Assembly: GCA_001767435.1 (NCBI GenBank)
Contig: MEKT01000016.1
Location: forward strand, 31,870 to 77,753
Origin: Acidobacteria bacterium RIFCSPLOWO2_02_FULL_65_29
GTDB lineage: Bacteria > Acidobacteriota > Vicinamibacteria > Vicinamibacterales > CAVVIG01
Length of the DNA: 45,884 nt
Direction of reading: 5' to 3'
Positions 18,388 through 20,499 of the stretch are shown piece by piece (position 1 is the first letter of the stretch; every line of letters starts with the position of its first letter). The position numbers and the translations under genes were made by a program. The notes under the pieces are model-generated. The model worked only from the letters and a program-made list of their open reading frames with translations, was not told the origin of the DNA and did no database searches.

Positions 18388-19917
18388 GTGAGCGCGGTCG
18401 CACTGCCGCTCGTCTTCACCGCCGGGCTGCTGGCGTTTGCTCTGTACCCGCCCGTTCGACAGACCCCCCCATTGCTCTGGTCGTTCCTCGGAATGGGTGC
18501 CGTCCTGCTCGCGTGGAACGTCGTGCTGCTCGTCTCCGCCCTGCGCAGGCGCCGCGTCTTCACGCGTGAAATCGTGCTGCGGCCGCAGCACTACGTTCAG
18601 GCGTGCGCCCACACGGCCATCTTCCTCTATTGGGGTTGGTACTGGCGGCCCGTGTACGATTCAGCCCATCTCATCGTCGCGCAGCTCTTCTTCGCGTACG
18701 CGTTCGACATGCTGCTCAGCTGGTCGCGACGCGACGCCTACACGCTCGGGTTCGGACCGTTCCCGATCATCCTGAGCACGAACCTGTTTCTCTGGTTCAA
18801 ACAGGACTGGTTCTACCTGCAGTTTGCGATGATCGCGGTCGGGTTCGCCGCCAAGGAATTCATTCGCTGGAACAAGGACGGGCGCCAGACACACATTTTC
18901 AATCCCTCCTCGTTCGCGCTCACCATCTTTTCGCTGTCTCTGATTCTGGCCGGGGCGAGCGACATCACATGGGGCAGGGACATCGCCACGACGCAGTTCT
19001 ATCCACCCCACATGTACCTGTTTCTGTTTCTGGTGGCGATGCCGGGACAGGTGCTGTTCGGTGTCACCACGATGACGATGTCGGCGGTGCTGACGACGTA
19101 TCTGTTTGGCCTTGCGCACTACAGTGTCACCGGCACGTACTATTTCTTCGATTCCTACATTCCGATTGCGGTGTTCCTCGGCATGCACTTGCTCTTTACC
19201 GATCCATCCACGGCGCCGCGAACCGAACTCGGGCGCATGATCTTCGGCGCTCTCTACGGGCTCAGCACCATCGCGCTGTACGGGCTGCTCGGCGTCGCTG
19301 GCCTGCCAACCTTCTACGACAAGCTTCTTCAGGTCCCGCTGCTCAACCTGTTGATCAAATGGATCGACCGGGCGGTCCGAGCCGAGCCGCTGCGACGATG
19401 GGATCCAGCGGCGATCGGGCGTTCGCTCTCTCCTCGTCGCCGCAATCTGGCGTACCTCTCTGTCTGGGCGATTGTGTTTGGGACCATGAGTGCTGCGCAA
19501 GGCGTGGGCGATCGCCATCGCGGCCAGTGGATTCCGTTCTGGCAGCAGGCCTGCCGGCAGGATCGCGCCTACGCCTGTCGGTACCTGGCGCAGCTGCACA
19601 CGACCTACTGCGCCGCGGGATCCGGTTGGTCGTGTAACGAGCTGGGTCGTCTGCAAGCCGACAGGGAGATGGATCGGCCGGCAGCGGTCGCGTCGATGCA
19701 GCGTGGCTGCGAGATCGGCTTCCAGCCTGCATGTGCCAACGCCTCTACCCTGATGAGCGGGGGCCCGCCGGCGGCGGCTGGACCTCCACCTCTCCAGGAA
19801 CTGCCCATTCTCTTGCGGGGAAGCAAAGGACCGATCGGCGATCGGCGCTCCGCGTCGCTGTACGCGCGCGCCTGCGACGAGGGCTGGCCTGACAGCTGTG
19901 GGCGGGTGACCCGATAG
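18388..19917 (+). CDS. NqrB/RnfD-like membrane protein with C-terminal Sel1-like repeats
   Basis: 509 residues from a GTG start without an obvious ribosome-binding site. Residues 1-330 hold about nine hydrophobic segments and motifs such as GRQTHIFNPSSFALTIFSL and SYIPIAVFLGMHLLFTDPST, as in RnfD/NqrB-like subunits of membrane redox complexes. A charged linker and one more hydrophobic stretch follow, then from about 385 Cys-containing helical repeats (QDRAYACRYLAQLHTTYC, GWSCNELGRLQADREMDRP, QRGCEIGFQPACANA) of the Sel1/Hcp type. No other Rnf genes are nearby, so it is probably not part of a classical Rnf pump. The Sel1 part may lie outside the membrane and bind a partner. Confidence 0.85.
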   Translation: MSAVALPLVFTAGLLAFALYPPVRQTPPLLWSFLGMGAVLLAWNVVLLVSALRRRRVFTREIVLRPQHYVQACAHTAIFLYWGWYWRPVYDSAHLIVAQLFFAYAFDMLLSWSRRDAYTLGFGPFPIILSTNLFLWFKQDWFYLQFAMIAVGFAAKEFIRWNKDGRQTHIFNPSSFALTIFSLSLILAGASDITWGRDIATTQFYPPHMYLFLFLVAMPGQVLFGVTTMTMSAVLTTYLFGLAHYSVTGTYYFFDSYIPIAVFLGMHLLFTDPSTAPRTELGRMIFGALYGLSTIALYGLLGVAGLPTFYDKLLQVPLLNLLIKWIDRAVRAEPLRRWDPAAIGRSLSPRRRNLAYLSVWAIVFGTMSAAQGVGDRHRGQWIPFWQQACRQDRAYACRYLAQLHTTYCAAGSGWSCNELGRLQADREMDRPAAVASMQRGCEIGFQPACANASTLMSGGPPAAAGPPPLQELPILLRGSKGPIGDRRSASLYARACDEGWPDSCGRVTR

Positions 19918-20031: not shown

Positions 20032-20499
20032 TTGCAAAAGACTCATGCATTTGTTCTCGCGTCGGCCGCACTGGCCACGGGACTTGGGTTTTCGGCGATC
20101 CATGCCCAACAGAGGAATTCCACGGGCACGGTCGTCGTCTACAAGTCGCCCACGTGAGGGTGCTGCACCGCCTGGATAGAACATCTCCGGGCGAATGGCT
20201 TCCAGGTGGAGGCCCAGAACGTGAGCGATGCGCGACTGCTTGCTGTCGCGAACGAGGCGGGAGTCACCGACGACCTGTCCTCGTGCCACACCGCCAAGGT
20301 CGATGGGTATGTCGTGGAGGGCCACGTGCCGGCCGCCGACATCCAGCGGATGCTGAAGGAGCGGCGGCCGATTGCCGGCCTTGCGGCTCCGGGCATGCCG
20401 ATGGGATCGCCAGGCATGGAACAGGGTGGCCGCAAGGATCCCTACGACGTGATTGCGTTCACCAAGGACGGCCGCCGATCGGTGTTCGCCAAACACTAG
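20032..20499 (+). CDS. DUF411 metal-binding protein with in-frame TGA at a conserved Cys (candidate selenoprotein)
   Basis: Reads as 155 residues from a TTG start (GAGGTG four bases upstream) with signal peptide QKTHAFVLASAALATGLGFS. The family motif normally reads KSPTCGCC; here it is KSPT, TGA (20155-20157, codon 42), GCC. The frame then continues uninterrupted with every DUF411 hallmark: WIEHLRANGFQVEAQNV, SCHTAKVDGYVVEGHVPAAD, GLAAPGMPMGSPGMEQGG and YDVIAFTKDG. DUF411 proteins (CopG type) bind copper through these Cys residues. A stem CGCCTGG/CCGGGCG begins 11 bases after the TGA, with its loop about 18 bases away, roughly where a bacterial SECIS would be, though the loop lacks the usual early G. 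A nonsense mutation or sequencing error is the alternative. Confidence 0.75.
20169..20193 (+). promoter_or_regulatory. Stem-loop just after the in-frame TGA, possible SECIS
   Basis: CGCCTGG (20169-20175) pairs with CCGGGCG (20187-20193), seven pairs including one U-G, extendable by an A-U; the loop is ATAGAACATCT. The distance from TGA to the loop fits the range usual for bacterial SECIS elements. The loop does not begin with G, so the match is imperfect. Confidence 0.35.

Follow-up and report, generated by a model that had tools for sequence, protein, structure and literature searches.

A DUF411 gene with an in-frame TGA codon

The window (the whole stretch of DNA analysed, 45,884 nucleotides) carries a gene of the DUF411/CopG family that begins at a TTG codon preceded by an AGGTG-type Shine-Dalgarno sequence (ACGAGGTG) and, with one in-frame TGA read through, stays open to a TAG stop at 20497-20499 (Table 1). 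The sequence around the TGA reads KSPT-TGA-GCC. As the initial annotation had claimed, this is a DUF411 gene in which TGA stands at a metal-site cysteine, the first of the CxCC motif, and both the frame beyond it and the later family motifs are intact, Cys85-His86, His98, Met122 and Met129 all being retained in the alignment, where His98 is as invariant as Cys85 and His86. The read-through translation matches the Pfam DUF411 model (PF04214; 4.5e-26, 90.8 bits, cut-off 27), which spans only the portion of the protein from SCHTAKVDGYVVEGH to GMPMGSPGME, and a genome search found this to be the only DUF411 gene of the source genome. The N-terminus resembles a signal peptide ending in AIHA, in agreement with the low confidence of residues 1-28 in the predicted structural model; judged from this putative signal, the CopG-type protein is probably exported. 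On the same strand, at 18388-19917, lies a gene whose product resembles NQR2/RnfD membrane proteins, by a Pfam match below threshold, and is rich in cysteine in its C-terminal part; the gene ends about 115 bases upstream of the DUF411 gene.

Table 1. Features of the DUF411/CopG-family gene and of the RNA hairpin predicted within it.
Feature	Position in window	Strand	Remarks
DUF411/CopG-family gene	20032..20499	+	155 codons plus TAG, one in-frame TGA read through
Probable signal peptide, MQKTHAFVLASAALATGLGFSAIHA	20032..20106	+	sequence inspection only
TGA codon 42, read as selenocysteine	20155..20157	+	CxCC position 1 (UGCC), aligned to CGCC of 6WIS
Weaker outer pairs round the hairpin	20158..20203	+	minimum-energy fold; 20158-20160 with 20201-20203 and 20162-20164 with 20197-20199 (predicted, no separate test)
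Cys44 and Cys45 of UGCC	20161..20166	+	invariant in family alignment
SECIS-like hairpin, 8-pair apical stem and 9-base loop, UAGAACAUC	20169..20193	+	20169-20176 paired with 20186-20193 (one G-U); loop 20177-20185
Cys85-His86 (SCHT)	20284..20289	+	invariant in family alignment
Met122-x6-Met129 (GMPMGSPGM)	20395..20418	+	corresponds to CutG M120x6M127, copper-binding

Conservation of the TGA codon and selection on the gene

A clear DUF411 protein is encoded in 91 of the 162 genomes of the order, 42 of them with TGA and 49 with TGC or TGT at this codon, and in all 42 TGA genomes the TGA falls on the first cysteine of CxCC. The alignment of homologues that the initial annotation had proposed as a check thus shows TGA at the same codon in relatives, and nowhere else in the gene. 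An exact-pattern scan for [YF]K-x-PT-TGA-GCC across 84,980 species genomes returned 82 stretches, comprising 78 clear DUF411 genes, three truncated by the end of the locus or contig, and one (L203) that proved unrelated to DUF411. According to the titles of their records, the matches belong to the Acidobacteriota, Gemmatimonadota, Rokuibacteriota, Chloroflexota, Pseudomonadota, Myxococcota and Tectimicrobiota. One record (L173) is titled Acidimicrobiia and its DUF411 sequence groups with the Vicinamibacterales, so that the title may be wrong; another (L167) is Parendozoicomonas callyspongiae strain 2012CJ34-2, which has a full selA alongside the TGA form. In total, 84 distinct DUF411 sequences that carry the TGA, drawn from seven or more phyla, could be compared with 47 Cys sequences. 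Searches made without regard to the Sec/Cys codon returned many DUF411 relatives on plasmids, the matches listed all being annotated as DUF411, and one distant relative in viruses.

The protein of a same-family relative (G033), 81% identical to the window protein, is also encoded with TGA, and the dN/dS between the two genes is 0.22 before the TGA and 0.125 after it; purifying selection continues downstream of the codon. That the TGA is accidental, a sequencing error or the mark of a recent pseudogene whose frame has not yet decayed, is practically excluded: a lone stop in one draft genome could, in the absence of raw reads, be an error, but its conservation in 84 sequences, including the G033 gene, rules this out, as do the low dN/dS past the TGA and the co-occurrence with selA described below.

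A tree built with the Sec/Cys column masked implies 15 exchanges between Sec and Cys by parsimony. The tree rests on just 124 columns and leaves many forks unresolved; when only its well-supported branches are counted, three exchanges are the minimum.

Selenocysteine machinery

The initial annotation had called for a search of the genome for selA, selB, selD and tRNA-Sec, and the three protein genes were found. In the source assembly (5.5 Mb, 239 contigs, 97% complete), selA (462 bits, truncated by the contig end), full-length selB (362 bits) and selD (365 bits) are linked on a single contig (C60). The selD gene (L252:7030-8145, minus strand) has an in-frame TGA of its own at AAGUAAK, a sequence consistent with the UxxK motif that Table 1 of PMC13188914 gives for Sec-containing SelD proteins, and is itself a selenoprotein gene.

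The search for tRNA-Sec, on the other hand, was negative: neither the Rfam model nor a BLAST search with the tRNA-Sec gene of G033 found one in the draft assembly, and the best Rfam match, a candidate at 48.9 bits, is actually a tRNA-Ser. ARAGORN called a tRNA-SeC with anticodon TCA in three relatives of the same family (G033, G035 and G016), and tRNA-Sec is also present in many other genomes of the order. Since same-family relatives possess the gene, its absence is likely to reflect a gap in the assembly.

Within the order, a match to selA (in a few cases only a fragment) was found in 40 of 42 TGA genomes vs 34 of 49 Cys genomes (Fisher p 0.0013, uncorrected for relatedness), and the two TGA genomes of the order without selA (G116 and G131) have selB. 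The 42 TGA genomes from the pattern scan that were tested for selA are nearly all outside the order; selA scores above the curated cut-off in 36 of them, and contig-end fragments of it occur in a further two.

A hairpin selected in TGA genes only

In bacteria, the SECIS hairpin lies directly after the UGA, with its loop 16-37 bases downstream. In the window, a stem starts 11 bases after the TGA and the loop 19 bases after it, inside this range. A seven-pair stem had been noticed at this distance in the initial annotation; its position holds, whereas the count of pairs has to be corrected to eight, one of them G-U. Taken alone, the window stem is only modestly above chance (z -1.6 relative to dinucleotide shuffles, p 0.011 relative to synonymously recoded sequences). 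The outer stem is present in about half of the TGA homologues, and a search of Rfam gave no family match at the hairpin/TGA site.

Across the 84 TGA homologues, the stem far exceeds chance. The null was built by synonymous recoding of each gene according to the codon preferences of that gene, and data and null alike were scored by their best stem, whatever its register. The TGA genes had a stem score of 17.6 vs 12.4 for the null, with none of 400 null sets reaching the observed value, whereas the Cys genes (n=47) scored 10.5 vs 11.1, with 393 of 400 null sets as high. The stem after the codon is selected in the TGA genes only, not in their Cys homologues. A second test, restricted to two fixed registers, found the excess separately in the clade of the window gene, the Gemmatimonadota, the Rokubacteria and the Betaproteobacteria. 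Set-wide z-values count related sequences as independent; a dereplicated test on 15 divergent TGA sequences, which guards against kinship, retained the two-register excess (0 of 1000), and Cys genes thinned in the same manner had none. The two-register score missed one clade (f14), most of whose members use another register, which is why the any-register score was adopted, and with it the excess is present in that clade too. No stem was found in the usual place in seven TGA forms of a Chloroflexota group (L150, L153, L154, L175, L188, L214 and L218), whose hairpin may be different or located elsewhere. By folding energy of the whole region, TGA and Cys genes were indistinguishable; only the stem score told them apart. 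One Cys form (L026, genome G087) is nested within a TGA clade and has lost the hairpin, with a stem score of 10 vs 21-24 in its TGA sisters, and its genome keeps selA; it is a natural reversal from Sec to Cys.

These data also bear on the possibility that the UGA is read as an amino acid other than selenocysteine, either by general reassignment of the codon or by a selC*-type tRNA-Cys inserting cysteine. Bacteria, Acidobacteria among them, are known to have tRNAs of the latter type and allo-tRNAs (PMC7609411), and no tRNA-Sec was recovered from the source assembly. General reassignment is nevertheless ruled out, TGA being a common stop in the window, where it terminates 13 of 25 long ORFs. Insertion of another amino acid by a special tRNA is opposed by the linked selA, selB and selD genes, by the tRNA-SeC with anticodon TCA in the relatives, and by a stem that is selected only in TGA genes, matching what SelB-dependent decoding needs, so that a reading of this kind as a whole is very improbable. 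The computed evidence, namely the conservation of the UGA, the machinery with its selA co-occurrence, the selected stem and the purifying selection, strongly supports the selenocysteine reading first put forward in the initial annotation. The product of the DUF411 gene is almost certainly a selenoprotein, the insertion of Sec itself being inferred in the absence of selenium data.

Relationship to CopG and the copper site

The window protein matches CopG of P. aeruginosa (PDB 6WIS, 6WJE) in sequence (phmmer 2.3e-35; about 48% identity) and in fold, its predicted model (pLDDT 84.8) having 6wis and 6wje as best Foldseek matches (E 2.4e-16, TM 0.90 on target). According to PMC7558416, CopG is a periplasmic protein in which CxCC and two methionines bind a tetranuclear copper cluster, and a copper oxidoreductase function has been proposed for it. 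Its CxCC motif and Met pair align with those of the window protein, which to judge by its putative signal is likewise exported; CopG differs in having Cys at the first CxCC position, where the window gene has UGA, read as Sec, and a hairpin. From the match in sequence and fold to 6WIS, the Sec is predicted to sit where CopG binds its tetranuclear copper cluster. Another DUF411 protein, CutG of Rhodobacter capsulatus, has the copper motifs C40xC42C43 and M120x6M127 (PMC8456105), whose counterparts here are U42-G-C44-C45 and M122-x6-M129. CutG is a Cys form encoded in a copper operon (cutFOG) with a multicopper oxidase, whereas the window gene lies outside such an operon. CutO activity in R. capsulatus does not require the CxCC and Met motifs of CutG (PMC8456105), so that the role of CxCC remains unsettled even in the Cys form.

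Clustering of the neighbours of TGA loci revealed no conserved copper operon round the gene, only sporadic matches: multicopper-oxidase-like genes in 6 of 97 loci and P-type ATPases in 3. The neighbours in the window are RnfD-like, DeoC and RpiB, with no copper genes. At another locus (L141:3494-4036), a gene of the PCYCGC family (PF13798), which has listed Sec members, adjoins the TGA-DUF411 gene.

That the Sec serves as a ligand at a copper site is, by homology only and without binding data, a fairly likely prediction. The protein might instead be a selenoprotein that acts as a thiol-disulfide redox enzyme, a glutaredoxin-like UxCC protein without a copper cluster. The thioredoxin fold, the lack of a copper operon nearby and weak NCBIfam matches to the glutaredoxin-like Uxx-star and YruB families would suit such an enzyme. 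Against this, the copper-site residues are all retained (UGCC, Cys85-His86, His98, Met122 and Met129), CopG is by far the closest solved structure, and multicopper-oxidase-like and P-type ATPase genes occasionally occur beside the gene at other loci. A redox enzyme free of copper is unlikely, though the possibility is not negligible, and with CopG described as a copper oxidoreductase, the redox and copper readings overlap.

The explanation that accounts best for these observations, and that we regard as highly probable, is a Sec-containing exported CopG-type protein, likely to bind Cu(I), in which Sec is inserted by the SelA/SelB/SelD-tRNA-Sec system with the help of the hairpin. SelA, SelB, SelD and a tRNA-Sec would insert Sec at UGA-42, guided by the hairpin that starts 11 bases past the UGA, and Sec would thereby replace the first CxCC cysteine of a protein with a thioredoxin fold. 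In the cell envelope, UGCC together with Met122 and Met129 would most likely bind Cu(I), as does the CxCC of CopG, and the protein may serve in copper tolerance or in the oxidoreduction of copper. Tight binding of Cu(I) is expected of a selenolate, as is a redox activity higher than that of a thiolate. Whereas the resemblance to CopG in sequence and fold is computed, copper binding and any advantage of selenium are inferred.

An apparently new selenoprotein family

The initial annotation did not recall DUF411 among the listed selenoprotein families, and this agrees with the sources available. DUF411, PF04214, COG3019 and CopG are absent from the main text of a 2026 review of 119 prokaryotic selenoprotein families (PMC13188914), and no NCBIfam model matches the window protein above threshold. 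A literature search, which did not cover subscription papers or supplements and does not rule out an earlier mention of DUF411 in the groundwater survey of Deng et al. 2026, gave no relevant link between DUF411, COG3019 or CopG and selenoproteins. Sec-DUF411 is apparently a real and new selenoprotein family.

Sec at a presumed metal ligand is shared by other predicted metal-related selenoproteins of bacteria listed in Table 1 of the same review (PMC13188914), namely a CopZ-family 2Fe-2S protein, the SO_0444 Cu/Zn efflux transporter, a cation-transporting ATPase and a MerT-like protein; these families are unrelated and none is DUF411. The Uxx-star glutaredoxin-like selenoproteins (NF041212, NF041114) share with the window protein a small thioredoxin-like domain and an N-terminal Sec motif, but the motif is of the UxxT type, SCHT and GMPxGSPGM are lacking, and the match reaches only 17 bits vs a cut-off of 66. 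To our knowledge, none of the metal-related selenoproteins in the review's table has Sec at the position of a known tetranuclear copper cluster.

The first CxCC cysteine of CopG has thus very probably been replaced by selenocysteine in dozens of related and unrelated bacteria, and the selenoproteome gains a family in the Vicinamibacterales, Gemmatimonadota and Rokubacteria. Standard gene callers would end such a gene at its UGA or place its start beyond the metal motif. The wider proposal, that in bacteria of seven or more phyla Sec and Cys have been exchanged repeatedly at one ligand of the tetranuclear CopG copper site and that an undescribed mixed selenium/sulfur copper cluster exists in the cell envelope, is evenly balanced between support and doubt. 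With Sec placed in a copper cluster of known structure, what selenium offers such a site is testable by comparing Sec and Cys forms of one protein; the family's repeated exchanges provide natural experiments, and Parendozoicomonas callyspongiae, a named strain that has selA besides the TGA form, is a candidate organism.
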